Shown: in pieces, positions 14,311 through 56,885 of the stretch
Layout of the letters: every line of letters begins with the position of its first letter
How positions within the stretch are numbered: position 1 is the first letter of the stretch
NCBI RefSeq assembly: GCF_001724135.1
Contig: NZ_MEDS01000019.1
Location: forward strand, 1 to 63,390
Origin: Comamonas sp. SCN 65-56
GTDB lineage: Bacteria; Pseudomonadota; Gammaproteobacteria; Burkholderiales; Burkholderiaceae_C
Direction of reading: 5' to 3'
Length of the DNA: 63,390 nt
Notes under the pieces: generated by a model
Seen by the model: the letters and a program-made list of their open reading frames with translations, nothing else
Told to the model about the DNA's origin: nothing
Database searches by the model: none
Program-made: the position numbers and the translations under genes

Positions 14311-15735
<1,425 letters not shown>

Positions 15736-15740
15736 TGTAT

Positions 15741-15789
15741 AAAAATGGCTGCAGCGCTTGCCAGTCAAGCGCTGGCAGCTATTTTTTTT
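15741..15789 (+). terminator. A-type repeat forming a strong hairpin plus T8 between boxB and boxA
   Basis: GCTGCAGCGCTTG, the loop CCAGT, then CAAGCGCTGGCAGC gives a stem of about 13 pairs. Eight T residues follow immediately, the layout of an intrinsic terminator. The core AGCGCTTG/CAAGCGCT and the trailing CAGCTAT identify it as a copy of dispersed repeat A. Its place inside the box operon suggests partial termination or mRNA stabilisation, so that boxA is expressed below boxB. This is inference. Confidence 0.65.
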
Positions 15790-29045: not shown

Positions 29046-32000
29046 TCAACGCGCCAGCACTGGCGCCAACGCCTGTCCGGTATGGGTCTTCAGCCGCACC
29101 AATTCCTCGGGCGTACCCGCCGCTACGATGCGCCCGCCGCCCGCGCCGCCTTCGGGGCCGAGGTCGATCACCCAGTCGGCCTCGGCAATCACGTCCAGAT
29201 CGTGCTCGATGACGAGCACGCTGTGGCCGCCATCGACCAGGCGGTGCAGCACGCGAATCAGCTTGTCCACGTCGGCCATGTGCAGGCCGACGGTAGGTTC
29301 ATCGAGCACGTAGAGCGTGCGCGGCGTTTTCTGGCCGCGGCGCGTAACGTCATCGCGCACCTTGGTGAGTTCGGTCACCAGCTTGATGCGCTGCGCCTCG
29401 CCGCCCGAGAGCGTGGGCGAGGGCTGGCCTAGCGTCAGGTAGCCCAGGCCCACGTCTTTCAGGAGTTGCAGCGGGTGCGCGATGGCGGGCATGCTGGCGA
29501 AAAACTGGACGGCCTCATCCACCTCCATGCGCAGCACCTCGCCTATGCTCTTGCCGCGCCAGGTGACGGCCAGCGTCTCGGGGTTGAAGCGCGCGCCGTG
29601 GCAGACCTCGCAGGGCAGTTTCACGTCGGGCAGGAAGCTCATTTCGATGGTGCGCATGCCCTGGCCCTGGCAGGAGGGGCAACGGCCTTCGCCGGTATTG
29701 AACGAGAACCGCGCCGCCCCGTAACCGCGCGCCTTGGCCTCCAGCGTTTCGGCAAAGAGCTTGCGGATCAAGTCCCAGAAGCCGATGTAGGTCGCCGGGC
29801 AGGAGCGCGGCGTCTTGCCGATGGGCGTCTGGTCGACTTCGAGCACGCGATCCACCGATTCGAAGCCCGAGAGGCCGGTGCAGCCGATGAGCGGCGGTGC
29901 CTTGCCCGCATCCATCGCATCGCGCCCTGCTTTGGTCTGGCGCTGGCTAACCCAGGCGGCCACGTTGGCCAGCAGCACGTCGCGCGCCAGCGTGGATTTG
30001 CCGGAACCGGAGACGCCGGTGATGGCGACCAGGCGGTTCAGAGGCACGCGGGCGGTGAGGTGGTGCAGGTTGTGCAGGTGGGCACCATGCACGGTGAGCC
30101 ATGCCTTCACTCCCTCCCCCTCTGGGGCTGAAGGCCGCAGCTCCGGTTCCGCCTGCGCGGAACCGGACGGCCTGAAGAGCGGCGGCGTCTCGCCGCCAGC
30201 ACCGGGGTTGGGGTGGGGGCTAGCAGCTTCCGCATTGATAGCTGCTCGCGCTTGCTGGTCAAGCGTTAGAGGCTGATTTGATTCAAATTCATCATTGGCA
30301 CCGGGTTGGCCCCCACCCCTGCCCTCCCCCAAAGGGGGAGGGAGCAAAACCGGCCGCCGCGCCTGCAAGGGGTGGCGCATCGCATGCAGCAGGTAACGCC
30401 CGGTCTGCGAATCCGCCACGGCCTCGATGTCGGCCACACGGCCCTCGGCGATCAGGCGGCCGCCGCGCTTGCCGGCGCTGGGGCCGATGTCGATCACGTG
30501 CTCCGCGGTGCGGATGGTTTCTTCGTCGTGCTCGACGACGACCAGGGTGTTGCCCTTGTCGCTCAGGCTTTGCAGTGCCCTCAAGAGGATGCGGTTGTCG
30601 CGCGCGTGCAGGCCTATGGTCGGCTCATCGAGCACGTAGCACACGCCCTGCAAATTGCTGCCAAGCTGCGCCGCGAGCCGGATGCGCTGTGCCTCGCCGC
30701 CCGAGAGGCTGGGCGCGCCGCGGTCGAGTGTGAGGTAGGACAGGCCCACCTCTTCGAGGAAGGCCAGGCGGCTCGCTATCTCGGGCAGCAGGTCGCGCGC
30801 GATCTCGGCACCGCGGCCGTCCAATTGCAAGCCCCGCACCCACGCGCGCACGTCGGCCACCGAGAGTTGCGCGATGTCGGTGATGGGCTGGCCCTCGAAC
30901 AGCACCGCGCGCGCCACCGGGTTCAGCCGCGTGCCTTCACAAGTGGGGCACGGCACATCCTCCAGGTCTTCCAGCTCGGGCTCGCCAAAGGTCTTCTCGC
31001 GGCCCAGCTCGCGGTCGGGCTGCATGGACTCGGTGATCACCTTGCGCTGCGCGCGCGTGAGCTGCACGCCGGTGCCCATGCAGTCAGGGCACCAGCCGTG
31101 CTTGCTGTTGTAGGAAAACAGGCGCGGGTCGGGCTCGGCGTAGCTGGTGGCGCAGACCGGGCAGGCGCGCTGAGTGGAAAACACCTGCACGCGGCCTATG
31201 CCCGACGTGGGCCTGCCCTGCGCCAGCGCGGCTTCCAGTCCGTCAAGCTGGCTGATCACCTGCACCACACCCTTGCCCAGCGCCAGCGCCTTTTCCAACT
31301 GCTCGTGCAGCAGGGCTTCATCGGCAGGCAAAACGTCCAGGCTGAACACCGGCAGTTCGATGCTGTGCTCCTTGAAGCGATCGAGGCGCGGAAAGCCCGT
31401 CGTCGGCAGAAACTCGCCATCCACGCGCAGATGCGTGTAGCCGCGCGGGCGTGCCCAGTCGGCGAGTTCGGTATAGACGCCCTTGCGGTTGACGACCAGC
31501 GGCGCGAGCAGGCCGACGTGCTGGCCGCGGTAGTCGCGCAGCACCTGCGCGACGATGCTGTCCACGCTCTGCGGCTGCACAGCAGCGCCGTCGTGGATGC
31601 AGTGCTGCACGCCGAGCTTGACGTAGAGCAGACGCAGAAAGTGCCAGATTTCGGTCGTCGTGCCGACGGTGCTCTTGCGCCCGCCGCGCGACAGACGCTG
31701 CTCGATCGCCACCGTCGGCGGAATGCCGTAGACCGCGTCCACCTCGGGCCGGCCCGCCGGCTGGACGATGGAGCGCGCGTAGGCGTTGAGCGATTCGAGG
31801 TAGCGCCGCTGCCCCTCGTTGAACAGGATGTCGAAGGCGAGCGTGGATTTGCCCGAACCGGAAACGCCGGTGATGACGTTGAACTTGCCGCGCGGGATGT
31901 TGACCGACAGGTGCTGGAGGTTGTGCTCGCGGGCGTTGATGATCTCAATCGCGGTTGGGCGTTGGGGGTTGGGCGTTGGGCGTAAATACCCAGCCTGCAC

Positions 32001-35000
32001 CTCCTGCACGCTGAACGCTGAACGCTGAACGCTGAACGTTTTTTCGTACTCGCGCAGCGCCTGCGCGGTGTATGAGCCCGGGTGCTGGCGCAGCTCCTCG
32101 GGCGGCCCTTCGGCCACCAGCTCGCCACCCGCATCGCCGCCATCGGGGCCGAGGTCGATCACCCAGTCGCTCGCGCGGATCACGTCGAGGTTGTGCTCGA
32201 TCACGATCAGCGAATGCCCGGCATCCAGCAGCTTGCGCAGCGCGCGCATCAGCTTGGCGATGTCGTCGAAGTGCAGCCCCGTGGTCGGCTCGTCGAACAG
32301 GAAAAGCTGCCCCTTGCGTGCCACCGGCTGGTGCGACTTGGCTCGCGCGCGCGCCGCTTCGGCGAGAAAGCCGGCGAGCTTCAGGCGCTGCGCCTCGCCG
32401 CCCGAGAGCGTGGGCACGGGCTGGCCCAGGCGCACGTACTCCAGGCCGACGTCGACGATGGGCGCCAGTGCGCGCTTGACTTCTGCATCGGCGGCAAAAA
32501 GCTGCGCCGCCTCGCTCACCGTGAGCTCAAGCACATCGGCCACGTTGAGCAGCCGCCCGCCGCGCTCCACGCGCACCTCCAGCACCTCGGGGCGGTAGCG
32601 CTGGCCGTTGCAATCGGGGCAGCGCAGATACACATCCGAGAGGAACTGCATCTCCACGTGCTCGAAGCCCGAGCCGCCGCAGGTCGGGCAGCGCCCGTCG
32701 CCGCTGTTGAAGCTGAACTTGGCGGCGTTGTAGCCGCGCTCTCTGGCCAGCGGCGCGGCGGCGAAGACCTCGCGGATGCCATCCCACGCGCCGACGTAGC
32801 TCGCGGGGTTGGAGCGCGCCGTCTTGCCGATGGGCGATTGGTCAACGAAGACCGCGTCGCTCAGAAAGTCCACGCCCAGCAGCCTGTCGTGGCGGCCCGG
32901 TGCCTCCGTGGCGCGGCCAAAGTGGCGCATCAGCGCGGGCGCGAGCACGTCCTGGATCAGCGTGGACTTGCCCGAGCCGGACACACCGGTCACGGTGACC
33001 AGCCGCTGCAGCGGGAACTGCACCGTGAGGTTCTTGAGGTTGTGCTCGCGCGCGCCTTCCAGAATCAGGCGCGGCGTGGACGCCGCCACCAGCCGCTTGA
33101 AGCCCATACCGACGGATTTGCGCGCACCGAGGTAGGCACCGGTCAGCGTGTCGGCCTGGCGCAGCGCATCCACGCTGCCATCGAAGACGATCTGACCGCC
33201 GCGTTCGCCCGGGCCCGGGCCCATGTCGATCACGCGGTCGGCGCAGAGCATCACCGCCGGATCGTGCTCGGCGACGACGAGGGTGTTGCCCGCATCGACC
33301 AGGCGGCGCATCGCCACGTTGATGCGATCCATGTCGCGCGGGTGCAGGCCGATGCTGGGCTCATCGAGCACGAACAGCGTGTTCACCAGCGAGGTGCCCA
33401 GCGCCGTGGTCAGATTGATGCGCTGCACCTCGCCGCCGCTGAGGGTGCGGCTCTGGCGGTCGAGCGTGAGGTAGCCGATGCCCACGTCGCAGAGGTATTT
33501 GAGGCGGGTGGCGATTTCTTCGAGGATTTGCTGGCGCGCTTGGGCATCCGCATTGGCTCCCTCCCCCGCTGGGGCTGAAGGCTGCGGCTCCAGTTCCGCC
33601 TGCGCGGAACTGGACAGCCTGAAGAGCGGCGGCGTCTCGCCGCCAGCACCGGGGTGGGGGTGGGGGCCAGCGGCGCCCACATCCACAAGATCGCCTGAAC
33701 TTGGCACCGTCAGCCCCCACCCCTGCCCTCCCCCAAAGGGGGAGGGAGAAAGAAGCAGCCGCTGCACGAACTGCCGCAACTTCACCAGCGGCAGCATCAC
33801 CAGATCATGCAGGCACAGCCCCGGCAGCGCCTCCAGCTGCGCCCGGCTCCACGCCACCCCCTGTGGCATGAAGCGCGCAGCGGGTGCCAGCACCGCGTCC
33901 GCATCCGCCTTGCTGCCCACGCGCCACAGCAGGCTCTCGGTCTTGAGCCGCGCGCCGCTGCACACCGGGCAAGGGGTGTAGCTGCGGTATTTGGACAGCA
34001 GCACGCGGATGTGCATCTTGTAGGCCTTGGTCTCCAGGTAGGCAAAGAAGCGCTTGATGCCATACCACTGGCGGTTCCAGTTGCCCTCGCGGTAGTCGGG
34101 CGTGCCCTCGATCACCCAGCATTGCTGCGCCTCGGTGAGCTTGTTCCACGGCGTGTCGCGCGGGATGCCCGCGGCCTCGCCGTGGCGCATCAGGTCGTCC
34201 TGGATTTCCTTCCACGCGGGCGTCTGGATCGCCTTGATCGCGCCCGCGCGCAGCGTGCGCTTGTCGTCGGGAATCACCAGCCCCCAATCGACGCCGATCA
34301 CGCGGCCGAACCCCCGGCAGGTCTCGCATGCGCCCACGGGCGAGTTGAAAGAGAACATCGAGGCGATGGGCTCGGCGTAGCGGATGTCGCTCTCCGGGCA
34401 GTGCAGGCCGGTGGAAAAGCGCCAGATTTCAGGCTCGGCCTCGCCCTCCTCCGGCAGCCGGTACACCGCCATGCGCCCGCCGCCGCGCAGCAAGGCCGTC
34501 TCGATCGCCTCGACCACGCGCGCGCGCTCGGCCCTGCCCATGCGAAAGCGGTCGGCCACCACGTCCAGCAGCTTCTTGCCGTCGTGCTCGCGCTCGGCCT
34601 GCACCTTGGTGAAGCCGCTGGCCGACAGCCATTGCTGCATCTGCTCGGGTGTGGTGCCGCCCGGCAGCTCGGCGGCAAAGGTCAGCACGATGCGCGGATC
34701 GCCCGCCTGCGCGCAGCGCGCCTGCAGCTCGGCGTGGATGCTGTCCGCGCTGTCGTGGCGCACGGGCAGCGCGGTCTGGCGGTCAAACAGCCGCCCGGCG
34801 CGCGCGAACAACAGCTTCAGGTGGTCATTGAGCTCCGTCATCGTGCCGACGGTCGATCGGCTGGAGCGCACCGGGTTGGTCTGGTCGATGGCGATCGCGG
34901 GCGGCACGCCCTCCACCTTGTCCACCGCCGGCTTGTCCATGCGGTCCAGGAACTGGCGCGCGTAGGGGCTGAAGGTCTCGACATAGCGCCGCTGCCCCTC

Positions 35001-35147
35001 GGCGTAGAGCGTGTCGAACACCAGGCTGGACTTGCCGCTGCCGCTCGGGCCGGTGACCACCGTCAGCGTGCCGGTGGCGATGTCCAGATCAAGGTTCTTG
35101 AGGTTGTGCTGGCGGGCTCCGCGGATGCGGATGCTTCCCTCGTTCAT
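29046..35147 (-). CDS. uvrA: Double-length UvrA: two complete UvrA units in one chain
   Basis: UvrA is the damage-sensing ATPase of nucleotide excision repair. This chain has 2033 residues, twice the usual 940-1000. It has four Walker A motifs (GPSGSGKS at 33-40 and three GVSGSGKST) and four signatures (TLSGGEVQR, TLSGGEAQRLK, SLSGGEAQRIR, TLSGGEAQRIK). Zinc-finger Cys pairs occur in both halves (CPVCSGARL, CPTCGGSGF, CPDCMG, CPTCEG, CPSCQG). Three segments are foreign: a B repeat at residues about 467-531, heptamer arrays at about 1037-1065 in the linker between halves, and a B repeat with nested A repeat at about 1602-1679. All keep the frame open. ATG at 35147 by family alignment, with GAAGG upstream. 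Confidence 0.9.
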   Translation of the reverse strand: MNEGSIRIRGARQHNLKNLDLDIATGTLTVVTGPSGSGKSSLVFDTLYAEGQRRYVETFSPYARQFLDRMDKPAVDKVEGVPPAIAIDQTNPVRSSRSTVGTMTELNDHLKLLFARAGRLFDRQTALPVRHDSADSIHAELQARCAQAGDPRIVLTFAAELPGGTTPEQMQQWLSASGFTKVQAEREHDGKKLLDVVADRFRMGRAERARVVEAIETALLRGGGRMAVYRLPEEGEAEPEIWRFSTGLHCPESDIRYAEPIASMFSFNSPVGACETCRGFGRVIGVDWGLVIPDDKRTLRAGAIKAIQTPAWKEIQDDLMRHGEAAGIPRDTPWNKLTEAQQCWVIEGTPDYREGNWNRQWYGIKRFFAYLETKAYKMHIRVLLSKYRSYTPCPVCSGARLKTESLLWRVGSKADADAVLAPAARFMPQGVAWSRAQLEALPGLCLHDLVMLPLVKLRQFVQRLLLSPSPFGGGQGWGLTVPSSGDLVDVGAAGPHPHPGAGGETPPLFRLSSSAQAELEPQPSAPAGEGANADAQARQQILEEIATRLKYLCDVGIGYLTLDRQSRTLSGGEVQRINLTTALGTSLVNTLFVLDEPSIGLHPRDMDRINVAMRRLVDAGNTLVVAEHDPAVMLCADRVIDMGPGPGERGGQIVFDGSVDALRQADTLTGAYLGARKSVGMGFKRLVAASTPRLILEGAREHNLKNLTVQFPLQRLVTVTGVSGSGKSTLIQDVLAPALMRHFGRATEAPGRHDRLLGVDFLSDAVFVDQSPIGKTARSNPASYVGAWDGIREVFAAAPLARERGYNAAKFSFNSGDGRCPTCGGSGFEHVEMQFLSDVYLRCPDCNGQRYRPEVLEVRVERGGRLLNVADVLELTVSEAAQLFAADAEVKRALAPIVDVGLEYVRLGQPVPTLSGGEAQRLKLAGFLAEAARARAKSHQPVARKGQLFLFDEPTTGLHFDDIAKLMRALRKLLDAGHSLIVIEHNLDVIRASDWVIDLGPDGGDAGGELVAEGPPEELRQHPGSYTAQALREYEKTFSVQRSAFSVQEVQAGYLRPTPNPQRPTAIEIINAREHNLQHLSVNIPRGKFNVITGVSGSGKSTLAFDILFNEGQRRYLESLNAYARSIVQPAGRPEVDAVYGIPPTVAIEQRLSRGGRKSTVGTTTEIWHFLRLLYVKLGVQHCIHDGAAVQPQSVDSIVAQVLRDYRGQHVGLLAPLVVNRKGVYTELADWARPRGYTHLRVDGEFLPTTGFPRLDRFKEHSIELPVFSLDVLPADEALLHEQLEKALALGKGVVQVISQLDGLEAALAQGRPTSGIGRVQVFSTQRACPVCATSYAEPDPRLFSYNSKHGWCPDCMGTGVQLTRAQRKVITESMQPDRELGREKTFGEPELEDLEDVPCPTCEGTRLNPVARAVLFEGQPITDIAQLSVADVRAWVRGLQLDGRGAEIARDLLPEIASRLAFLEEVGLSYLTLDRGAPSLSGGEAQRIRLAAQLGSNLQGVCYVLDEPTIGLHARDNRILLRALQSLSDKGNTLVVVEHDEETIRTAEHVIDIGPSAGKRGGRLIAEGRVADIEAVADSQTGRYLLHAMRHPLQARRPVLLPPPLGEGRGGGQPGANDEFESNQPLTLDQQARAAINAEAASPHPNPGAGGETPPLFRPSGSAQAEPELRPSAPEGEGVKAWLTVHGAHLHNLHHLTARVPLNRLVAITGVSGSGKSTLARDVLLANVAAWVSQRQTKAGRDAMDAGKAPPLIGCTGLSGFESVDRVLEVDQTPIGKTPRSCPATYIGFWDLIRKLFAETLEAKARGYGAARFSFNTGEGRCPSCQGQGMRTIEMSFLPDVKLPCEVCHGARFNPETLAVTWRGKSIGEVLRMEVDEAVQFFASMPAIAHPLQLLKDVGLGYLTLGQPSPTLSGGEAQRIKLVTELTKVRDDVTRRGQKTPRTLYVLDEPTVGLHMADVDKLIRVLHRLVDGGHSVLVIEHDLDVIAEADWVIDLGPEGGAGGGRIVAAGTPEELVRLKTHTGQALAPVLAR
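30111..30344. repeat. Composite repeat B, copy 1, inside uvrA, with a nested A repeat
   Basis: The left arm (30111-30217) has an outer stem AGGCCG/CGGCCT and an inner stem CCGGTTCCGC/GCGGAACCGG with loop CTGC. The right arm (about 30309-30344) has a CCCTCCCCC/GGGGGAGGG hairpin with loop AAA. The middle holds an A repeat. Translated in uvrA, the arms give PHPNPGAGGETPPLF and PPPLGEGRGGG. About 78 codons are added without a stop. Confidence 0.85.
30234..30290. repeat. Repeat A copy nested inside repeat B in uvrA (inverted orientation)
   Basis: Read on the opposite strand it has the A features AACGCTTG, the loop ACCAG, CAAGCGCGAGCAGCTAT. The plus strand ends GATTTGATTCAAATTC, shared with the diverged copy in liuB. 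It replaces the variable centre of the surrounding B element. Confidence 0.8.
31954..32038. repeat. Two heptanucleotide arrays in the uvrA linker
   Basis: At 31954-31981 there are four units of GTTGGGC (one GTTGGGG). At 32011-32038 there are four perfect units of CTGAACG, followed by a T run. A 29-base spacer lies between. A seven-base unit is not a multiple of three, so loss or gain of one unit would shift the uvrA frame. The encoded linker includes FSVQRSAFSVQ and RPTPNPQRPT. Confidence 0.9.
33557..33748. repeat. Composite repeat B, copy 2, inside uvrA
   Basis: Left arm with outer stem AGGCTG/CAGCCT and inner stem CCAGTTCCGC/GCGGAACTGG. Right arm hairpin CCCTCCCCC/GGGGGAGGG, loop AAA. The middle (about 33671-33712) is unrelated to the middles of copies 1 and 3. 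Translated in uvrA it gives SPSPFGGGQGWG and PHPHPGAGGETPPLFR, about 64 codons. The right arm is read in a different frame from copy 1. Confidence 0.85.
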
Positions 35148-35227
35148 GTGACGGCCTTCACGGAGGTGGGGCCAAAATTCTAGGCGGCGCGGCCCATGTC
35201 GCAAGGATGCAGGGTTATAGGCAGCGC

Positions 35228-35264
35228 TTTATTTCATTTGAAATAAAAACATCGTTTTATTTCA
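35228..35264. promoter_or_regulatory. Palindrome and direct repeat upstream of the Xre/RES operon
   Basis: TTTATTTCATTTGAAATAAA (35228-35247) is a near-perfect palindrome. The half-site TTTATTTCA recurs at 35256-35264, 28 bases on. AT-rich, in contrast to the surroundings, and about 70 bases before the antitoxin ATG, so a likely autoregulatory operator. It could also serve the divergent uvrA. Confidence 0.55.
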
Positions 35265-35331
35265 TGTGATGTTTTTTGCCTGAACCCTGTACCATGTGTC
35301 TATTCATTCATGGTCTTGCAAGGAGCACGCG

Positions 35332-35709
35332 ATGACCGCCACCCAAGCCGTCCAGGCCATCGATCCCCAAGCGGTTCTGACCAAGGCCACCCTGCGCGCG
35401 GCAGACCTGCTGGCCCTGCAGAACACCGACCTGGCAAAGGTGATCGGCGTCAGCACCGCAACGGTCAGCCGCTACCGAAGCGGCACCGCGGAAATCTCCC
35501 CCGCCACCAAGGCCGGCGAACTCGCGCTGCTGCTGGTGCGCATCTTCCGCTCGCTCGATCCGCTGGTCGGCTCGGACACCGAAATGCGCAGGCAGTGGAT
35601 GCACTCGCGCAACAAGGCCCTCGGGGGCATCCCCGCCGAGCTGGTCCTCAAGCCCGACGGCCTGGTCCGCACCCTGGCCTATCTGGACGGGATGCGCGCC
35701 GCCGCATGA
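35332..35709 (+). CDS. Xre/MbcA/ParS-type antitoxin of a RES toxin-antitoxin pair
   Basis: 125 residues. An Xre-like helix-turn-helix (LALQNTDLAKVIGVSTATVSR, YRSG) is followed by the C-terminal toxin-binding MbcA/ParS domain (LVRIFRSLDPLVGSDTEMRRQWMHSRNKALGGIPAEL). An AAGGAG site lies eight bases before the ATG. Its stop overlaps the toxin start (ATGA). Confidence 0.88.
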   Translation: MTATQAVQAIDPQAVLTKATLRAADLLALQNTDLAKVIGVSTATVSRYRSGTAEISPATKAGELALLLVRIFRSLDPLVGSDTEMRRQWMHSRNKALGGIPAELVLKPDGLVRTLAYLDGMRAAA

Positions 35710-36425
35710 CGAAGGCCGGGTGGCAGCCAGGGTGGCTTGACGAAACAGCCACCCATTTGACGGAGCCTGCGGCATGGCGGGGCGTCGAAACGCAGTACGT
35801 CAGTTCCAGCTTGCAACTCGTCGATTCCCATGCCGAACATGACGTGCTCGAAGCGCTTCTCGAAACGAGCAAACCTGCCCTGCCGAGCGTGAAAACCCAA
35901 AGCCAGCACTTCCTGCTCTTCACGCCATTCCGGTATACGCCGCAGCACCCCAGCCGCTTCAGGGCACTTGGGCACCTGGGCATCTGGTACGGTGCGCGCG
36001 AGCTGGAGGCGGCCTGCGCCGAAGTCGCCTACTGGCGCATGCGCTTCATTCTCGACAGCGCGGGGCCGAGTCAACGCAGGCTCACGACCCACCATACTTT
36101 TTTCAAGGCCGCCGTGGAAGGCAAGGGGCTGGACCTGACGTTGCCTCCCTGGAACACTTTTGAGGATGCCTGGAAAAACACCCGGGACTACGCCGAAACA
36201 CAGCGCCTGGCGGCCGCCGCCGAGGCTGCGGGCATTCAGGTCATTCAGTACGCCTCGGTGCGTGCGCCCGGCCGCACCTGCTTTGCCGTCTTCACCCCTG
36301 AAGCCTTGAGCGAGCCCGCGGGAGGACTCGACCCGTCGCGGCAACGATGGACCTGCACGGCCACCCGTGATCGCGTTTTGATGACGCAAGAGGGCGGCGG
36401 CATGCGATTTGCGTGGGACGGTTGA
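35706..36425 (+). CDS. RES-domain toxin
   Basis: 239 residues. The RES domain includes FRYTPQHPSRFRALGHLGIW and YGARELEAACAEVAYWRMR, holding the conserved Arg and Glu, and a late conserved Ser or Asn region around IQVIQYASVRAPGRTCFAVFTPEAL. RES toxins degrade NAD+ or transfer ADP-ribose. It is longer than many RES toxins because of the N-terminal extension WQPGWLDETATHLTEPAAWR. Coupled to the Xre-type antitoxin. Confidence 0.87.
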   Translation: MTKAGWQPGWLDETATHLTEPAAWRGVETQYVSSSLQLVDSHAEHDVLEALLETSKPALPSVKTQSQHFLLFTPFRYTPQHPSRFRALGHLGIWYGARELEAACAEVAYWRMRFILDSAGPSQRRLTTHHTFFKAAVEGKGLDLTLPPWNTFEDAWKNTRDYAETQRLAAAAEAAGIQVIQYASVRAPGRTCFAVFTPEALSEPAGGLDPSRQRWTCTATRDRVLMTQEGGGMRFAWDG

Positions 36426-36447
36426 GGCAGCAGCCACCGCTGCAGCA

Positions 36448-36600
36448 CGGATGCCAGGCCAGTGAAAACCACTCGATCAGCCGCAGCGCCTGCAAAAATT
36501 CAAGCAAAAAACGCTCACCCAAACCCGGAGCCTGATCGGCATACCACCCAGCCGCTTCATCGAGCTCCGCCTGCGCAGGCTCAAGCAGCCGAAGGCTCAT
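36448..36600 (-). pseudogene. Truncated ParE/RelE toxin remnant
   Basis: From an ATG at 36600 the frame reads MSLRLLEPAQAELDEAAGWY and continues to LIEWFSLAWHP, the first half of a ParE-type toxin. It then runs into sequence unlike the family, antisense to the end of the RES gene. The C-terminal strands and active residues are absent. It lies 17 bases after a DUF2442 gene, which may have been its operon partner. Confidence 0.7.
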
Positions 36601-36617
36601 GCGCCAGACGTGCCCAG

Positions 36618-36869
36618 TCACGCGGTTTGCGCGTTTTCCACCAGGCCATGCAGACGCGCGGCAGACAATTCCAGTCCGTTGGGCCAGCACAGCGCACCCG
36701 CGTCGACAAAGCAGCGCGCAAAGCAAGCCGCGTCGCGCAAAGGCTCAAGCAACGGCCCCTGGCGGGTGGCGAGGTAGGCGCCGCCATCAAAAACGCCATG
36801 CACGCCATCGCTGAACACCAGCGCCAGCCGGTGTTTGCCAAATGAAGTGACCTCAAGCAACTTGATCAC
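36618..36869 (-). CDS. DUF2442 family protein (downstream copy)
   Basis: 83 residues with a DUF2442 pattern: VTSFGKHRLALVFSDGVHGVFD, then GPLLEPLRDAACFARCFVDAGALCWPNGLELSAARLH. It starts with GTG, preceded by AAGGAG six bases upstream. The start overlaps the stop of a shortened DUF4160 gene. DUF2442 and DUF4160 genes commonly pair as predicted toxin-antitoxin modules. The function is unproven. Confidence 0.75.
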   Translation of the reverse strand: MIKLLEVTSFGKHRLALVFSDGVHGVFDGGAYLATRQGPLLEPLRDAACFARCFVDAGALCWPNGLELSAARLHGLVENAQTA

Positions 36870-36976
36870 GATCTGCTCCTTGAATGCGGTCCAGATTCAA
36901 CGTGAATGTGTGGCGGCGGATGATCGTCGTGCCACATGCGCACGATGATGCCGAAGAAGATCGCGATGGTGGGCAT
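36866..36976 (-). pseudogene. Shortened DUF4160 gene
   Basis: 36 codons. The N-terminus MPTIAIFFGIIVRMWHDDHP followed by PPHIHVESG is the clear start of a DUF4160 protein. It ends in SRSRS after about half of the usual 75-85 residues. Its stop overlaps the DUF2442 GTG, so coupling to the next gene survives. It is probably an internal deletion that removed the C-terminal half. Confidence 0.65.
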
Positions 36977-36979
36977 GAC

Positions 36980-37231
36980 TCACACCGGCGCGTGCTGCAC
37001 CCTGCGCGTCCGATCGGCTTGCCCTGCGAGCAGACCCTCGACCGAAATGTCTTCATCCAGAGCCTCCCAATGCAGACCGTAGCGGCTCAGCTCGACCTGA
37101 GCGCGTTGCTGCGGATTGGCACCCAGCAGACGCGGAAACCAGGCCAGCGGTGCGGCGATGGTGCGCCCATCGGACAAATCGACCCACAGCATGTCCGCAT
37201 CAAACCGCACGGCTTTAGGCGAAATGGTCAT
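36980..37231 (-). CDS. DUF2442 family protein (upstream copy)
   Basis: 83 residues: MTISPKAVRFDADMLWVDLS, then DGRTIAAPLAWFPRLLGANPQQRAQVEL and GLHWEALDEDISVEGLLAG, the classical DUF2442 sequence. It overlaps the intact DUF4160 gene by 17 bases. This pair is a second, apparently intact module beside the decayed one. Confidence 0.85.
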   Translation of the reverse strand: MTISPKAVRFDADMLWVDLSDGRTIAAPLAWFPRLLGANPQQRAQVELSRYGLHWEALDEDISVEGLLAGQADRTRRVQHAPV

Positions 37232-37457
37232 TCCACGCCCTTTCAATCAAAGTCTGGTTCTCGACCACCAGTTCGCGCAGTTTACGCAAGGTGCTGGCAT
37301 CAAAGCCATCGCTGTCGGCCAGATAGACCTCCGGCGCCAGCCAGAATTTTGCTTCGCCCTCGCCACTGCGTACATGCACATGCATGGCTTCACGCGGATT
37401 GCCTTCGTTGGAGTAGAAGAAAAAGCGAAACGCTTGGTGGCGGAAGATGACAGGCAC
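37215..37457 (-). CDS. DUF4160 family protein (intact)
   Basis: 80 residues with a GTG start. VPVIFRHQAFRFFFYSNEGN, REAMHVHVRSGEGEAKFWL and LRKLRELVVENQTLIERAW match DUF4160. The start lies next to the stop of the restriction-methylation gene (GTGTGACGTG), so all three genes probably share a transcript. A likely toxin-antitoxin partner of DUF2442; which is the toxin is not settled by sequence. Confidence 0.82.
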   Translation of the reverse strand: MPVIFRHQAFRFFFYSNEGNPREAMHVHVRSGEGEAKFWLAPEVYLADSDGFDASTLRKLRELVVENQTLIERAWNDHFA

Positions 37458-37458
37458 G

Positions 37459-40314
37459 TCACACCTCGGGACTTCTGCCGCTTGCTGAGGCCCGCTTGCG
37501 CCCGGCCCTGGCCTTGCCCACCGGCAGCAGGCTGGTGAGCTGCTGGTAGCGTTCAAAGAGAAAGGCCACGCGCTCGGCGTCGCTCTTCCAGGTTTTCTTG
37601 CCGCCGACGAGGGCGTAGGCGGCGTCCACCGCCGCATCCAATTTGTGGTGCGCTTTGAGCAGCACGGGGGGCATGGTCAGCGGGTCGTACAGGTCGGCCA
37701 GGCTGCTGGCGGGGAACTGGGCGCGGGCATCGAGCACGGCTTGCGCAGCGGTTTCGATAGCTGTTTGCGCTTTATGGGCGGGCGTTGGAGGCCGATTTGG
37801 CTCTGATTTTGGCGGTAGATCGGGCCAGGGGAAATTGTTGTAGACAATGGCGGCGGAGTAGCGGAAATCGCTTTTCAATCGGCCGCAGACGGCACGCACC
37901 CAAGCGTTGTGCATGGTGCTGGAGAGCACGCCGAAGTGAAACAGCGTGGCGCCGGGTGCCATCTTGACCAGATTGCTGCACAGGGTTTCGGGCTGCTCAA
38001 AGCCAAACGGGATGAAGGCGCGGCGCTCGGAAGACACTTCCGGCAGCACCAGATAGGGCGCGGCGGGCATGTTCTCCACATGAAAGCGCGTCGGCGTATC
38101 GGCCAGCTTGCGCGTGGGTGCGCTCTTGCTGGCAAGGCGAAAGTTCTTCACTGCCTGCACGCGCTTCAAAGCCTCAGGCATGGCGCGCAGCGCGGCGGGG
38201 GGGCAGTCGCCCAGCCACAGGCACCAGCGTTCGTAACCGTTCAAAAACTCAATCGCGCCCAGCCAGCGCCGGAACCAGAGCGCGCTGGTCGGTTCCCTGG
38301 CGATGAAGGCATCGCGCTCTTCGGTGGTGAACAGGTAGTTGCCGTCGTCGATGGGTTTGTTGCCTATGCCAATCTCGGGCACGGCACAGATCGGCCGACT
38401 GCGCCGGGGCAGCACCACATCGGGCGCATCCACCAGATAGGGATTGATGTTGGCGGCAGGCACCGCCAGCGGCTCGCCCTTGATGTCCTCGTATTCGTAG
38501 ATCACCTTGTCCGGCACGTCTTGCAAACCAAAGCCGACGATGACGCAGTGCACGGCGGCCTTGCCACTGGCCTCGTTGCTCCAACTGAAGGTGCGGTGGG
38601 CGAAGTGGATGTGGATGCCCCGCGCCAGCAGCCAGCCCCAGAGCACGCCAACCTGCTCGCCCTGGGTGATGCTGTTGGTGGAGACGAAGGCGGCGCGCAT
38701 CGCGTGCGCCGCTGGCCCCCACCCCCGCCCTCCCCCAGAGGGGGAGGGAGTTAGATAGCGTGCGGCCTTGACGTACCAGGCGGCGACGAAGTCGAGCAGG
38801 CCGGCGTTGGGGATGCCTTCGAACACCACGCGGGTGTCTTCGCGCTGCGCGTCGTCCATGAACTTGGCGCCGACGAAGGGCGGGTTGCCGAGCACGTAGC
38901 TGCACTGCTCCATTGGCAGTACCTCGTTCCAATCGAGCGTGAGCGCATTGCCATGCACCACGCGCGCGCTGCTCTTGAGCGGGATGCGCGCGAAGTACAG
39001 GCCGAATTCCTCGCTCACGCGCAAATTCATCTGGTGATCGACCAGCCACAGCGCCACCTGCGCGATCTGCGCGGGGAATTCCTCGATCTCGATGCCGAAG
39101 AACTGGTCCACGTCCAGGCTGATGAGCTGGTGCACGTCCAGCGTCTGCTGGCCACTCTGGTAACTGGCGCGCAGCACTTCCAGCTCCAGCAGGCGCAGTT
39201 CGCGGTAGCTGATGACGAGGAAATTTCCGCAGCCGCAAGCCGGGTCGAAGAAGGTCAGCTGGCGCAGCTTCTTGTGGAATTCGAACAGGCGGTTGCGGTT
39301 GTTCCTGACCTTGTGGAACTCGGCCCACAGCGCATCGAGAAACAGCGGCTTGATGAGCTTGAGGATGTTCTCTTCGCTGGTGTAGTGCGCGCCCAGGTTG
39401 CGCCGCGCCCTGGCGTCCATGATGCTCTGGAACAGGCTGCCGAAGATGGCGGGGCTGATGGCCGACCAGTCCAGCGCGCAGGCGTCGAGCAGCGCGGTGC
39501 GCATGTCGGCGTCGAAGTCGGCCAGCGGCAGGGGTTCCTCGAACAAGCGGCCGTTGACGTAGGGGAAAGCGGCAAGCTGCTCGTCCAGGTGCTTGCTGCG
39601 CAGGTGTTCGGGCGTGTTGAGCACCTGAAAGAGCTGGGCCAGGCGCGGGCCCAGGTCGCTGCCGTCGGGCGCGGTGCGTTCTTCCACCCACAGGCGCAGC
39701 GCCTGCGCGGGCTGGAAGATGCCGGTGTCGTCGGCGAACAGGCAAAACAGCAGGCGCACCAGCAGCACCTCCAGCGCATGGCCGCCGTAGCCGCTGGCCT
39801 TGAGCGCGTCGTGCAGCCGCCCCATGCGCTCTGCGGCGTGGATGTTGACCGGGTTCTGCGCGGTGATCTCCTGCATCCGGTAGCCGGCGATGAAGCCGAA
39901 CAGGCGCACGTGCTTGTGCAGGTCGGCCAGGGCAAATTCGGTGGTCTTGCCGCTGGCGAGCTGGTGCACGCGAAAGCGCACGAAGTCGCAGACGATGATG
40001 ATCTGCGGCAGGTCGCGTTCAAGAATGCCGGGGAAGTAGCCCAGCGCCTGGTCGAAGGCGGCATCCAGACTGCGCCCGCGCGACTTCTGCTCCACCAGCA
40101 GCATGCCGGGCCAGAACAAGTCCACAAACCCTTGACCACCACCGTGCTTCTTGACGTTCAGTTCGAAGGTGGCGACGCGCTTGTCGGTGATGCCGAAGAT
40201 CTCGAAGAACGCGATCCAGAAGGGCTTGGCCTCGGAATCCTCATTGGCCGCGTCTTCCCAAGTGCGGCTGAAGGCCAGCGCGCGGGATTTGATTTCGTTC
40301 CAGGACAGGGGCAT
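37459..40314 (-). CDS. MmeI-like bifunctional restriction endonuclease-methyltransferase
   Basis: 951 residues. The N-terminal nuclease has a PD-(D/E)xK site: D65, then E75 and K77 in LLVEQKSRG, the same D-x9-ExK spacing as MmeI. A helical domain follows, then an N6-adenine methyltransferase with motif I FDPACGCGNFLV (D357) and motif IV NPPF at about 477. A C-terminal target-recognition region comes last. Two repeats sit in frame: a B right arm giving LTPSPSGGGRGWG (about residues 522-534) and a diverged A copy giving PKSEPNRPPTPAHKAQ (about 835-853). Both fall between conserved blocks. Whether activity survives them is unknown. Confidence 0.87.
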   Translation of the reverse strand: MPLSWNEIKSRALAFSRTWEDAANEDSEAKPFWIAFFEIFGITDKRVATFELNVKKHGGGQGFVDLFWPGMLLVEQKSRGRSLDAAFDQALGYFPGILERDLPQIIIVCDFVRFRVHQLASGKTTEFALADLHKHVRLFGFIAGYRMQEITAQNPVNIHAAERMGRLHDALKASGYGGHALEVLLVRLLFCLFADDTGIFQPAQALRLWVEERTAPDGSDLGPRLAQLFQVLNTPEHLRSKHLDEQLAAFPYVNGRLFEEPLPLADFDADMRTALLDACALDWSAISPAIFGSLFQSIMDARARRNLGAHYTSEENILKLIKPLFLDALWAEFHKVRNNRNRLFEFHKKLRQLTFFDPACGCGNFLVISYRELRLLELEVLRASYQSGQQTLDVHQLISLDVDQFFGIEIEEFPAQIAQVALWLVDHQMNLRVSEEFGLYFARIPLKSSARVVHGNALTLDWNEVLPMEQCSYVLGNPPFVGAKFMDDAQREDTRVVFEGIPNAGLLDFVAAWYVKAARYLTPSPSGGGRGWGPAAHAMRAAFVSTNSITQGEQVGVLWGWLLARGIHIHFAHRTFSWSNEASGKAAVHCVIVGFGLQDVPDKVIYEYEDIKGEPLAVPAANINPYLVDAPDVVLPRRSRPICAVPEIGIGNKPIDDGNYLFTTEERDAFIAREPTSALWFRRWLGAIEFLNGYERWCLWLGDCPPAALRAMPEALKRVQAVKNFRLASKSAPTRKLADTPTRFHVENMPAAPYLVLPEVSSERRAFIPFGFEQPETLCSNLVKMAPGATLFHFGVLSSTMHNAWVRAVCGRLKSDFRYSAAIVYNNFPWPDLPPKSEPNRPPTPAHKAQTAIETAAQAVLDARAQFPASSLADLYDPLTMPPVLLKAHHKLDAAVDAAYALVGGKKTWKSDAERVAFLFERYQQLTSLLPVGKARAGRKRASASGRSPEV
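37756..37810. repeat. Repeat A copy inside the restriction-methylation gene (diverged)
   Basis: On the plus strand, GATAGCTGTTTGCGCTTTATGGGC, then GGCGTTGGAGGCCGATTTGG, matches inverted repeat A (CAGCTAT end, GCGCTT core, GGCC.ATTT flank) with a partly broken stem. It adds a Pro/Glu-rich stretch to the protein. Confidence 0.6.
38712..38750. repeat. Partial repeat B (right arm only) inside the restriction-methylation gene
   Basis: GGCCCCCACCCCCGCCCTCC through GGGGGAGGGAG, forming the CCCTCCCCC/GGGGGAGGG hairpin with loop AGA, as in copy 3. The left arm is absent. It adds about 13 codons (SPSGGGRGWGP) between a methyltransferase segment and the next conserved block. Confidence 0.8.
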
Positions 40315-40325
40315 GGGTTTTCAAG

Positions 40326-40373
40326 AAAATTGGCCTCTAGCGCTTGCAGGACAAGCGCAAACAGCTATTGTTT
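40326..40373. repeat. Dispersed repeat A, intergenic copy 3
   Basis: TTGGCCTCTAGCGCTTG, loop CAGGA, CAAGCGCAAACAGCTATTG: a seven-pair stem, just upstream of the restriction-methylation gene. Next to it are two TTCCGAAG direct repeats (about 40371-40410). Confidence 0.8.
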
Positions 40374-40536
40374 CCGAAGATAAACATCTCCGCGATTCTT
40401 CCGAAGGTAACCGGAGGCGGTGCTGCTGCGCAAGGTGAATGCCCAGTGTGCTCCAACGATTTCAATGCCAAACAATCCTCTTCGCATCATCGACCGCGCG
40501 CACCCGCAATTTCCATCAGGCGTGATAACATCCGTC

Positions 40537-40833
40537 ATGCCTGCGTCCAAACTCTACGACGATACGCACAAGATTTCCGACAAGCGCGAAAATGGCAGTC
40601 TGCGTCGGGAAGTCTGGGTGGATGAAAAGGGCAAGGTCACACGCTACAACCTGGCCTACATCAACCACCGCTTGCACTCAGGAGACAACGGGCGCGTGGT
40701 TGGCTACGACAACGCCCACGGCTACCACCATCGGCATTACTTCGGTGCGGAGGAGCCCATCGACTTCGTGAGCTTTGAGGACGTGGAAAAACGCTTTGAG
40801 CAAGACTGGATTGCACTGAAAGGCCGCCCATGA
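40537..40833 (+). CDS. TumE-like (DUF6516) putative toxin
   Basis: 98 residues: KLYDDTHKISDKRENGSLRR, WVDEKGKVTRYNLAYINHRL, then GYDNAHGYHHRHYFGAEEPI. The His/Arg-rich centre matches DUF6516/TumE toxins as I remember them. The ATG at 40537 was chosen because the upstream frame has no family resemblance. Its stop overlaps the partner gene (ATGA). Confidence 0.68.
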   Translation: MPASKLYDDTHKISDKRENGSLRREVWVDEKGKVTRYNLAYINHRLHSGDNGRVVGYDNAHGYHHRHYFGAEEPIDFVSFEDVEKRFEQDWIALKGRP

Positions 40834-41204
40834 CCCAACTGACCATCAAGATTGCTACTGAAGACGATTTCTTCAAGCGTGGCCGCCGATTGGCACGTGC
40901 GGCAGACCGCGGCGAGCCTATCCCCGAAGAGCGAATCGTCAGTTTTGAAGATCCGGCCGACGTGATGAAGCTGATGACGGCTACGCGCCTGGCGCTGTTT
41001 CGCGCCGTGAAGGAAACGCCGGGATCGATCACGGAGATTGCCGAACGGCTGCAACGCGACCGCAGCGCGGTCAAGCGCGATCTGGACGAGATGGAGCGCT
41101 TCGGTCTGGTCACGATCGCGGAGAAGGTATTGCCAGGGCATGGGCGCATGAAGGAAGTGCGCGTGACGGCGGCTCGGGTGCAGCTCATGGCGGAAGTGGC
41201 GTAG
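40830..41204 (+). CDS. Helix-turn-helix antitoxin partner of the TumE-like protein
   Basis: 124 residues. The N-terminal part EDDFFKRGRRLARAADRGEP precedes a winged-helix region: LALFRAVKETPGSITEIAER, then LQRDRSAVKRDLDEMERFGLV. This is the usual predicted DNA-binding partner (TumA-like) of DUF6516 proteins. Coupled by ATGA overlap. Lies at the right edge of the defence island. Confidence 0.72.
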   Translation: MTQLTIKIATEDDFFKRGRRLARAADRGEPIPEERIVSFEDPADVMKLMTATRLALFRAVKETPGSITEIAERLQRDRSAVKRDLDEMERFGLVTIAEKVLPGHGRMKEVRVTAARVQLMAEVA

Positions 41205-41385
41205 AGAAATCCGATTGAGCCGCAGGCCACCGTCTCGGCCTGAAACGAGCGCATGACTGCGCTGCGCGCAACTCAGGCTTGAGTCTGCCACCCGCTCCAG
41301 GCCGCCCACTGCCGCACGCCTGTCTTTTGCGGCATGCGCGCGCAGTGGCGCAATGCCTGGCCCAGTGTAGCCCCACTGTTTGATA

Positions 41386-41435
41386 TGAAAATCCAGCTCG
41401 GCGCGCTTCAGACAAGCGCCAACAGCTATGGATTT
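41386..41435. repeat. Dispersed repeat A, intergenic copy 4
   Basis: GCGCGCTTCAGACAAGCGCCAACAGCTATGG with a GCGCTT/AAGCGC stem and the CAGCTAT end, between the TumA-like gene and the end of the DsbA-family gene. The rest of this spacer (41205-41385) shows no gene or clear site. Confidence 0.7.
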
Positions 41436-41441
41436 GTTGGT

Positions 41442-42092
41442 TTACGTCACATCGGGAACGCCCGATAGCAGTTGCCTCGCTGCCTCCCACGCCGGGCCAT
41501 CGAACCAGGCATCGCCATCAAGGAAGACACGCAGCATGGGCAGGCTGTCCAGGCCCCAGAAGAGCTTGTCTTGCACCTCGAACATCGGCACGCCGAACAC
41601 GCCGCGCGCGGCGGCGGTATCGGTGTTCTCGCGCAGCAGGCGCTTGGCACGCTCGCCCGCGCCTTCATCTTGGCGCAGTTGTTCGGCCAGTTGCACCCTC
41701 AGCGCGTCGAGCCGCTGCGGTTCGAGCGCATCCGCGCCGCCCTGCCAGACATGGCGCAGGATGGCGTCTGCGGTGTAGCGGTTGATGCAGCCATCGTCGC
41801 TGCATTCCAGCGCCAGGCGCAAGAGCGGCAGCGGCGGGAAGGGGTGACGTGCGGGCATATCGAGGCCCACGCCCAGGCTGTGTCCCAGCCAGGTGACGTG
41901 GCGGTAGGTCCAGTCGCGCTTGGGGGCGATGCCCGCCGGGCCGGGGTTGCCGTGCTGTTGCAACAGCGCGCCCAGCAGCACCGGGCGGTAGCGCACGCGC
42001 ACGCTCAGGCCCTCAAGGGTGCGCGGCAGTTGCTCGAAGGCGAGCCAGGCGTAGGGGGAGACGAAGTCCAAGTGGAAGGTGATGTCGTGCAT
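41442..42092 (-). CDS. DsbA-family 2-hydroxychromene-2-carboxylate isomerase-like protein
   Basis: 216 residues with a thioredoxin-like GST-kappa/DsbA fold. It opens with HLDFVSPYAWLAFEQLP, where SPY replaces the CxxC motif, as in hydroxychromene carboxylate isomerases. Further on, GVFGVPMFEVQDKLFWGLDS holds the cis-Pro loop (GVP). These enzymes act with glutathione in naphthalene and other aromatic degradation, but many homologues have unknown substrates. No aromatic genes are adjacent. Confidence 0.85.
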   Translation of the reverse strand: MHDITFHLDFVSPYAWLAFEQLPRTLEGLSVRVRYRPVLLGALLQQHGNPGPAGIAPKRDWTYRHVTWLGHSLGVGLDMPARHPFPPLPLLRLALECSDDGCINRYTADAILRHVWQGGADALEPQRLDALRVQLAEQLRQDEGAGERAKRLLRENTDTAAARGVFGVPMFEVQDKLFWGLDSLPMLRVFLDGDAWFDGPAWEAARQLLSGVPDVT

Positions 42093-42155
42093 GGTTACTC
42101 CAAAATTTCAGGCAAAAACCCGTTCAGGCACGCGACTGGCAGCGTGGCAGTGCGA

Positions 42156-42342
42156 CCCCTTCCCCCTTTGGGGCTGAGGGTTGCGGCTCCAGTTCCGCCT
42201 GCGCGGAACTGGACAACCCGAAGCGCGGCAGCGTCCCGCCGCCAGCACCGAGGCGGGGATGGGGGCAGCGCGGCAATCACGGTCGCGGGTCCTGTTCGGC
42301 ATTGCAAGCCCCCACCCTACCCTCCCCCAGAGGGGGAGGGAA
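42156..42342. repeat. Composite repeat B, copy 3, intergenic
   Basis: Left arm with outer stem GGGTTG/CAACCC and inner stem CCAGTTCCGC/GCGGAACTGG, loop CTGC. Right arm CCCTCCCCC/GGGGGAGGG with loop AGA. The centre (about 42262-42307) is unrelated to those of the other copies. It fills most of the spacer between the ybaK-like and DsbA-family genes. Confidence 0.85.
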
Positions 42343-42354
42343 GAAGACCCAAAG

Positions 42355-42858
42355 TCACGCCTTGGGCACCTGCACCACATCGACCACGGGCGCGCCGGTC
42401 AGGCGTTCCAGGTCTTGCGGCTTGAGGCGAAACACCGCATGCGGATGCCCGGCGGCGGCCCAGATTTCGTCAAAGCGCAGCAGATCCCGATCAATCAAGG
42501 TGACCGGCGGCTGGATGAACCCGACGGGCGAGACACCGCCGATGGTGAAGCCCGTCGCGCTCTTGACGAAGTCGGCATCGGCGCGGCCGATGGGGCCGAT
42601 CAGGCTGCTGACCTTTTTCTCGTCCACGCGCCGGTCGCCCGAGGTGATGACGAGCACCGCCGCATCGTCGCTCTTGCGCCGGAAGATGATGCTCTTGGCG
42701 ATCTGGCCGACCACGACGCCCAGCGCACCGGCCGCCTCCTGCGCGGTACGCGCGGAGATGTCGAGCATTTGAGGGGCGTGCGGGTGGCCGACGGCGCTGA
42801 GTGCCGCGACCACGCGCTGCACGCTGTCGTTGGAAGGGAGGGAAGTGGCTTCAGTCAT
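42355..42858 (-). CDS. YbaK/EbsC-type aminoacyl-tRNA deacylase-like protein
   Basis: 167 residues. YbaK/ProX fold: VGQIAKSIIFRRKSDDAAVLVITSGDRRVD with the conserved Lys, then GFTIGGVSPVGF and DEIWAAAGHPHAVFRL. The family hydrolyses mischarged tRNAs such as Cys-tRNA(Pro). The ATG was chosen by alignment; a longer frame exists. Confidence 0.87.
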   Translation of the reverse strand: MTEATSLPSNDSVQRVVAALSAVGHPHAPQMLDISARTAQEAAGALGVVVGQIAKSIIFRRKSDDAAVLVITSGDRRVDEKKVSSLIGPIGRADADFVKSATGFTIGGVSPVGFIQPPVTLIDRDLLRFDEIWAAAGHPHAVFRLKPQDLERLTGAPVVDVVQVPKA

Positions 42859-42904
42859 GGGGCTGACTTTAGGCCAAAGCCGGACCAGCCTCGCGCCTGC
42901 GCCC

Positions 42905-43561
42905 TTACGCCCGGGCCACCCGCCCGACAAAGGCCAGGCTCGCGCCCATCGCCATCAGCACCGCCCCGGCGATGCGGTTTTGCGTGCGCTGCGCACGCGC
43001 CGAATTCATCCACCCGCGCAAGCTCGCGGCCAGCAGCGCGTAGCCGTGCATCACGACGAAATCAACCGTGAGGGTGGTGACCAAGAGCACCAGCAATTGC
43101 GGCGCCAGCGCGCGCGTGGGGACGATGAATTGCGGCAGCACCGCGACCATGAAGACGATGCCCTTGGGGTTGGTGGCGTTGGTCAGCAGGCCACGCAGGA
43201 AGCGCTGGCGCGCACTGAGCAGCGGCGCCTGCGCACTCCGCGATGGGACGGCGTCATCGGCCTCTCTCGCGAAAATCACGGGCGCGCGCCACTGGTGCAG
43301 CCCCAGCCACAGCAGATAGGCCGCGCCCAGCACCTTGACGACGGTGAACGCGGTGCTGGAGGCGAGCAGCACCGCCCCCACGCCCACGCCCGCCACCAGC
43401 AGGATCAGCGCCAGCCCCGCCTGCAAGCCAAGGATGGTGACGCTGGCGCCGCGCACACCCCACGAGAGGCCGTGGCTCATGGAAAGCACCGCGCCCGGCC
43501 CGGGCGAGAGCGCGATGGCGATCGCCGCGACCAGATAGGCAAGCCAGAGATGCCAATCCAT
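42905..43561 (-). CDS. LysE/RhtB-family amino-acid exporter
   Basis: 218-residue membrane protein, about six spans. It has the family N-terminus LAYLVAAIAIALSPGPGAVL, SMSHGLSWGVRGA, and the second-repeat NPKGIVFMVAVLPQFI. Lies 12 bases downstream of liuE, and may export amino acids or homoserine lactones. The substrate is unknown. Confidence 0.88.
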   Translation of the reverse strand: MDWHLWLAYLVAAIAIALSPGPGAVLSMSHGLSWGVRGASVTILGLQAGLALILLVAGVGVGAVLLASSTAFTVVKVLGAAYLLWLGLHQWRAPVIFAREADDAVPSRSAQAPLLSARQRFLRGLLTNATNPKGIVFMVAVLPQFIVPTRALAPQLLVLLVTTLTVDFVVMHGYALLAASLRGWMNSARAQRTQNRIAGAVLMAMGASLAFVGRVARA

Positions 43562-56825: not shown

Positions 56826-56835
56826 GATTTATCCA

Positions 56836-56885
56836 ACAAAAGTACCTTTAGCGCTTGTGGATCAAGCGTCAAAAGCTATGCATTC
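56836..56885. repeat. Dispersed repeat A, intergenic copy 5
   Basis: TTTAGCGCTTG, loop TGGAT, CAAGCGTCAAAAGCTATG: a seven-pair stem with one G-T pair, between the thiolase and acyl-CoA dehydrogenase genes. Confidence 0.75.

Follow-up and report, generated by a model that had tools for sequence, protein, structure and literature searches.

Three copies of a composite repeat in the window

A stem-loop recurs at three places in contig NZ_MEDS01000019.1 of Comamonas sp. SCN 65-56 (genome G000), within the 63,390-nt stretch that was analysed here and that we call the window. What is this structure, and how did it come to lie at several sites, two of them inside a gene? The original prediction treated it as part of one composite repeat, with every difference between copies matched across the stem and with constant loop and flanks. 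The sequence confirms the outer stems AGGCCG/CGGCCT, AGGCTG/CAGCCT and GGGTTG/CAACCC in the three copies, the inner stems CCGGTTCCGC/GCGGAACCGG and CCAGTTCCGC/GCGGAACTGG with their loop CTGC, and compensation at all four pairs that differ between copies. The loop is constant as described, but the flanks are not: the bulge reads CAGC at 30.1 kb and CGGC in the other two copies, and the linker reads GAAGCG at 42.2 kb and GAAGAG in the other two. The repeat itself is real, but it is not a single unit. It consists of two nested elements, an outer inverted pair of the BoxC/triplex-motif (TM) type and an inner hairpin module of 76 nt.

Copy 1 of the whole element occupies 30110-30344 (+), inside the DNA-repair gene uvrA and antisense to it. 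Its BoxC/TM-type arms (30110-30127 and 30327-30344; inverted repeat I1, 18 nt, 94%) enclose a spacer and the 76-nt module at 30128-30203 (+), which a covariance model matched at 30120-30199 with 101.3 bits. In this module, hairpin I spans 30128-30177, with its outer stem at 30132-30137/30168-30173, the bulge CAGC at 30138-30141, the inner stem at 30143-30152/30157-30166 and the loop at 30153-30156. Hairpin II follows at 30181-30187/30191-30197 with loop TCT. Copy 2 lies at 33557-33748 (+), also inside uvrA and antisense, with arms at 33557-33574 and 33731-33748 (inverted repeat I2, 18 nt, 89%). Its 76-nt module at 33575-33650 (+) was matched with 103.9 bits and has hairpin I at 33575-33624 and hairpin II at 33628-33644. 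Copy 3 is found at 42158-42340 (+; inverted repeat I1, 16 nt, 88%), and its 76-nt module at 42174-42249 (+), the one with outer stem GGGTTG/CAACCC and linker GAAGCG, was matched with 96.7 bits. Open reading frames and Pfam bear out the predicted placement of two copies inside uvrA and the third between genes, here a DSBA-like gene at 41442-42092 (-) and a tRNA_edit gene at 42355-42930 (-).

Folded whole, copy 1 as RNA gave a z-score of -7.57 and copy 2 as DNA a z-score of -7.11, and in each case none of 200 dinucleotide shuffles was as good. In the assembly, the 18-mer GTTCCGCCTGCGCGGAAC has three exact matches, all of them within the window; the covariance model R1 found 10 modules genome-wide. 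Four of the 10 are clustered within about 13 kb on contig C25 of the genome (402-417 kb), and three further ones lie within about 12 kb in the window.

Covariation supports the stems

The structure proved wider than first noted. Hairpin I has at its foot a CT/AG helix with tandem G.A pairs, and a T-A pair stands above its CGGC bulge; a GAAGAGC linker leads to a second, downstream covarying hairpin, hairpin II, with a TCT-type loop. An alignment, A1, was made of 56 copies (55 distinct) from the genus and family, gathered by whole-module similarity with the unpaired bases not fixed; the partial copies L044 and L060, of 58 loci, were left out. RNAalifold on A1 added the CT/AG foot, leaving the tandem GA/GA, and placed the T-A pair over the 4-nt bulge. 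Standard pairs make up 95.4% of the pair cells in the 55 distinct copies. Two-sided changes numbered 222, compared to a mean of 61.9 in shuffles, and were seen at 18 of 23 pairs, compared to 12.7. The covariation score was 0.498 for A1, 0.172 for shuffled alignments and at most 0.103 for slid controls, a comparison that is favoured because the structure was derived from these same sequences.

Covariation was then assessed with a home-made, R-scape-like test, in which parsimony substitutions on a FastTree tree are re-dealt over the columns so that the phylogeny is kept. Ten pairs were significant (E below 0.05) and all 10 are in the proposed stems, four in the outer and six in the inner stem of hairpin I, with none outside the structure. 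This result was obtained with 119 distinct sequences (from 135, among the matches listed only) and 100 null alignments, and it was repeated with 150 distinct sequences (from 171) and 200 null alignments; in the latter run, three of the 10 pairs, all with E below 0.05, fall short of the highest score in any null alignment (138.7). Rows of A1 with an insertion at column 57 or a length other than 53 nt were dropped from both sets. A pattern scan of named genomes, which left 13 stem pairs open and specified several unpaired bases as well as the G next to CTGA on its 5' side, found at least 117 copies in at least 116 loci. Across 100 distinct stem sets, 1193 of the 1300 cells at the open pairs (91.8%) are Watson-Crick, compared to 61.7% after shuffling (maximum 65.1%). 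These tests support the original reading of the covariation as a sign of selected structure in RNA or single-stranded DNA.

Compensatory changes can also arise without selection on structure if one arm of a quasi-palindrome is copied onto the other during replication, and such correction is a known process in bacteria. The differences between copies are mostly Watson-Crick swaps, as this process would leave them. Against it, A1 with its 56 copies shows conservation of the unpaired CGGC bulge, the GA/GA and the GAAG, and mismatches and G.T intermediates occur, with a strand asymmetry. We therefore consider quasi-palindrome correction a very unlikely source of the covariation.

The module is nested in the arm of another repeat

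Each copy in the window is bounded by G/C-rich inverted arms, CTCCCTCCCCCnnnGGGG ... CCCCnnnGGGGGAGGGAG, that are 88-94% complementary. The plain form of this repeat is typically the inverted arm pair CCCTCCCCC-nnn-GGGGGAGGG-nn-GGGGTGGGGGC. In the long copies, the module adds 76 nt within the left arm, as ...CCCCCnnnGGGG^CTGA....CACC^G(A/G)GG..., and all modules of this genome occupy the same place in the host arm.

With the 33.6 kb copy as query, 108 pieces in 41 clusters were found across the genome; since pieces with E up to 10 were used, a few clusters may be chance (one is 17 nt long). Forty of 127 first-look repeat candidates were scored. The majority of the 41 clusters are the plain repeat without the stem-loop. 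Ten carry the module, and all 10 R1 modules fall on a cluster. One plain BoxC/TM-type repeat without the module lies in the window at 38706-38750 (+), in frame in an MmeI-like restriction-modification reading frame (37459-40314, -).

The window also holds a second dispersed repeat family, AGCGCTTG..CAAGCGC..AGCTAT, at 2190-2246, 15726-15782, 40312-40368 and 56823-56879. A likeness to this family is also seen in the spacer of copy 1 (about 30237-30290), so copy 1 may be a triple nest.

Filled and empty sites in uvrA

The uvrA gene of the window (29046-35204, -) encodes 2052 aa, and its two composite copies are in frame and antisense. It was aligned across nine genomes of the genus, one of which (G007) has only a partial gene. 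At the 33.6 kb site, the module is present in the window genome, and the plain repeat without it is found in G001, G003, G005 and G008; G003 has the same TM-type repeat with a nearly identical spacer, and only the module is absent. At or near the 30.1 kb site, G001 and G003 have a plain TM-type repeat and G008 a shortened one. A third uvrA site has the module in Comamonas badia (G001) and the plain repeat in G003, G005 and G008. Each of the three module sites is a 25-residue gap in G003. In this alignment, no such repeat was found at these uvrA linkers in G004 and G006.

The orthologous sites of sister species hold the outer repeat in its plain form, so a gain of the module at these sites is most likely, and the uvrA pattern is best explained by its having entered an older insertion repeatedly. 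Loss in several sisters is formally possible as an alternative. Each module adds a net 25 stop-free codons to a linker where the plain repeat was already present, and this accounts for its tolerance by uvrA.

The double-length uvrA (2052 aa) is a feature of the Comamonas genus, and its linkers resemble an insertion hot spot. In G005, the uvrA open frame reaches up to 2212 aa, with several in-frame repeat insertions. A second uvrA-like match, with an open frame of about 1000 aa, is present on contig C6 of the genome. In-frame placement is also seen in another locus, L201 (2-2263, +), where a module lies between a GTP_EFTU domain and a C-terminal domain of a 754-aa open frame that we read as CysN-like.

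A hairpin ending in a G run as the proposed insertion target

Flanks were counted in the 114 of 117 scanned copies with enough flanking sequence. GGGG stands immediately 5' of CTGA in 110 of them, the last G being fixed by the search pattern, and 109 have a CCC...GGG stretch within 45 nt. The tighter arrangement CCCC-N1-8-GGGG is found in 89 of the 114, compared to 9.4% of the 6948 GGGG sites in the same loci. The right boundary of the module is less constant, with one or two G absent at some junctions. At three present/absent comparisons no target-site duplication was evident; because the junctions are G-rich, with G runs on both sides that could hide a short duplication, such a duplication would look the same as the site itself. 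By inspection, the module (CTGA...CACC) is without terminal inverted repeats, unlike a MITE; it is the outer TM-type pair that has inverted arms.

The host repeats are of several kinds. Besides the TM type, there is one ending in CTCAGGGGG, and another, starting CCGGGCCGCCCCAAG and ending GTGGGGG, was seen, among the loci retrieved, at 21 distinct places carrying the module and at 10 lacking it; there are others. Hosts were sorted by simple motifs, which left 26 of 80 unsorted among the matches listed.

These hosts bear on whether the module moves by itself. It could have spread solely by recombination or template switching between host repeats, that is, by gene conversion, with no transposition of its own. 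Short and almost identical arms of the host repeat abound in the genome (41 clusters), the modules of the genome sit at the same place in the arm, and the local flanks at uvrA are retained, as conversion would predict. The module is also found in unlike host repeats that have little in common beyond CCCCnnnGGGG, for which homologous conversion is not a ready explanation. Spread by this route alone is possible, though on the unlikely side.

Distribution

The module is present in six of the nine genomes of the genus. A DNA search found it in 59 of 299 family genomes, and R1 found it in at least 95 of the 299, in 59 of 141 genera; the figure of 95 is a lower bound because 15 candidates were scored per genome and the filters were stricter. 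Among 300 genomes of the order, six had matches, four of them in the same family. The two beyond the family are L306, with a partial likeness to the core, and L307, which does not look module-like to us. Named hosts include Comamonas badia, Acidovorax, Polaromonas, Rhodoferax, Curvibacter, Hydrogenophaga, Variovorax and Ottowia. A few scan records carry labels of other groups, such as Bradyrhizobium, Methyloversatilis and a gammaproteobacterium; these are all metagenome bins, and the labels are as given. R1 had 26 hits in Polaromonas P2-4, 12 in Hydrogenophaga taeniospiralis and 10 in Acidovorax radicis.

Relation to known repeats

The original prediction knew no named family for the structure. 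With respect to Rfam 15 this stands: there were no matches in the window at the gathering score, and of the two matches in eight loci (E up to 1), neither was at the module. Otherwise it needs amending: the layout of the outer arms is that of BoxC/TM, and for the module the probable name is Betaproteobacterial Repeat Element (BRE; Hot et al. 2011), a match made by description and not by sequence. According to the excerpted text of that study, BRE is 75-91 bp long, GC-rich and multi-copy, occurs in Comamonadaceae and Bordetella, and is sometimes in tandem or in coding sequence (PMC3110155). The length of the module (76 nt in the window), its multi-copy state in Comamonadaceae and its tandem loci all fit. 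In L090, a tandem pair of modules with the tail GCGGCCTGCAAGG repeats with a period of 85 bp, the span of the BRE at 3605317-3605401 in B. pertussis Tohama I (PMC3110155, same excerpts). A genome labelled Polaromonas sp. JS666 gave six hits with our model, compared to the 29 BRE in the excerpts of PMC3110155, a count made by a different method and possibly on a different strain. The BRE section of that paper (section 14), as excerpted, is silent on secondary structure and covariation as well as on nesting and any target rule.

The TM of E. coli, in Table 1 of the excerpted PMC4666352 (Holder et al. 2015), consists of a hairpin with a C-rich and a G-rich side and, after it, another stretch rich in G, ..GGGGTGAGGG... 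The same arrangement is seen in the outer arms here, ..GGGGTGGGGG.., which like the BoxC/PIT/TM repeats are dispersed and often form an inverted pair; the TM type is assigned here by sequence layout. In sequence the arms depart from the E. coli form, and GGGGGAGGG is present in almost every arm of the genus. Insertion of a module is not described in the excerpts of the BoxC/TM literature (PMC4666352).

Two other kinds of repeat were compared. REP elements, in the excerpts consulted, are short dispersed palindromes associated with RAYT (Y1) transposases (PMC2817692), and they are found inside genes, uvrA included (PMC3733652). By inspection, the A1 consensus has no GTAG. CGTC stands atop hairpin II in variants like those of the window and, in other variants, immediately after it; CGTC is not at the foot of hairpin I and is not clearly an end tag as in CGTC REPs. 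The Bor-1 stem-loop family of Bordetella, in the excerpts of PMC2267715, is an intergenic structured repeat with lengths of 93 and 117 in two species, and the module resembles it, by description only, in being structured and intergenic.

In the open-licence literature, no paper was found with the inner-stem core sequence, and the excerpts on Comamonadaceae repeats, BoxC/PIT, nested MITEs or terminators and BRE held no account of nesting. As far as we searched, three points are new: the statistics on covariation, the nested arrangement and the target next to a hairpin.

The favoured strand is antisense to most of its neighbours

Wobble pairs can point to the strand that folds. In the stems, G.T cells outnumber A.C cells by 55 to 19, with related copies included. 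In a smaller set, among the matches listed, the G.T share was 72% (41 vs 16), compared to 53% expected from the make-up of the columns, and counting by distinct context, also among the matches listed, gave 33 vs 15. The excess of G.T over A.C favours the given strand as the folded one, though it could have other causes.

The gene context of 117 copies was taken from a crude ORF caller: 27 are near an edge, three have no flanking gene, 11 lie in an ORF and 76 between ORFs. In 62 of the 76 intergenic copies, the 3'-side gene is read from the other strand, which makes the folded strand antisense to it; the median distance to the 3'-side gene over the 76 copies is 42 nt. No replication-strand bias was found in the one genome counted, with the origin assumed at coordinate 1 (13 of 26).

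It could be argued that the module is a structured RNA, such as an sRNA, an attenuator or an element of 3'-end processing or termination, with selection acting on the transcript. The covariation, the tandem G.A and the conserved bulge are RNA-like, and many copies are near gene ends. In addition, the probable same element, BRE, lies in the bprJ transcript region of B. pertussis, whose transcripts were detected on Northern blots (PMC3110155, as excerpted). On the other side, the strand favoured by G.T runs antisense to the adjacent gene both in uvrA and in 62 of the 76 copies between ORFs, the module is multi-copy, patchy (six of nine genus genomes) and nested in other dispersed repeats, and no Rfam family matched it in the window or the eight loci. 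We regard an RNA role as fairly improbable. Because the favoured strand is antisense to uvrA and to most neighbours, single-stranded DNA is modestly preferred over neighbouring mRNA as the selected form.

A possible mobile hairpin and the search for its enzyme

We give about an even chance to the reading that the module is a non-autonomous mobile hairpin, likely of single-stranded DNA, that is read by shape and inserts beside an existing hairpin. This reading is favoured here over host-repeat recombination and an RNA role, and the three are not mutually exclusive. The sequences themselves establish the covarying structure, the filled and empty uvrA sites within existing repeats, the recurrent GGGG at the left boundary across host types and the multi-copy spread. 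We infer that a filled site marks a gain, that the module moves directly and is not copied by host-repeat recombination, that its substrate is single-stranded DNA and that an HUH/Y1-like or other structure-reading enzyme acts on it. The working form would be a folded single strand of DNA built as CT, GA, stem, CGGC bulge, stem and loop, closed on the other side by GA and AG and followed by GAAGAGC and hairpin II with its TCT-type triloop. A candidate trans-acting enzyme would read this shape and the few fixed unpaired bases. The module would then settle immediately 3' of a hairpin made of a C run, a loop and a G run (CCCCnnnGGGG^CTGA...) that pre-exists in another dispersed repeat; in the analysed genome, that host would be the left arm of the BoxC/TM-type inverted pair. 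It is a more speculative and rather doubtful proposal that this represents a new class of mobile element, a coding-free strand of about 76 nt that parasitises repeats at CCCCnnnGGGG^, with recognition by shape of element and target alike.

Short dispersed repeats are numerous in bacteria, and the movement of most is not understood. Solid structure, a recurrent hairpin-GGGG target and filled and empty sites make a vaguely known repeat testable. One can ask which strand folds, which enzyme binds it and how generally hairpin-adjacent insertion builds composite elements in many genomes.

A Y1/RAYT partner was sought in 60 relatives, and 39 had a match. Y1_Tnp (PF01797) had no match in the single-contig genome G003, which has four modules, nor in the module-carrying genomes G001 and G008. 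We set aside Y1/RAYT as a linked partner, and we do not reject Y1 as the enzyme of the module in other genera. GTAG REPs without a linked transposase gene exist, so a distant Y1 enzyme is possible. Y1 genes and their surroundings were covered by 35 loci (L092-L126, in some cases more than one per gene), two of which held the module core. A module lies within a few kb of a Y1 gene only in G006 and G012, and the Y1 genes are often single-copy.
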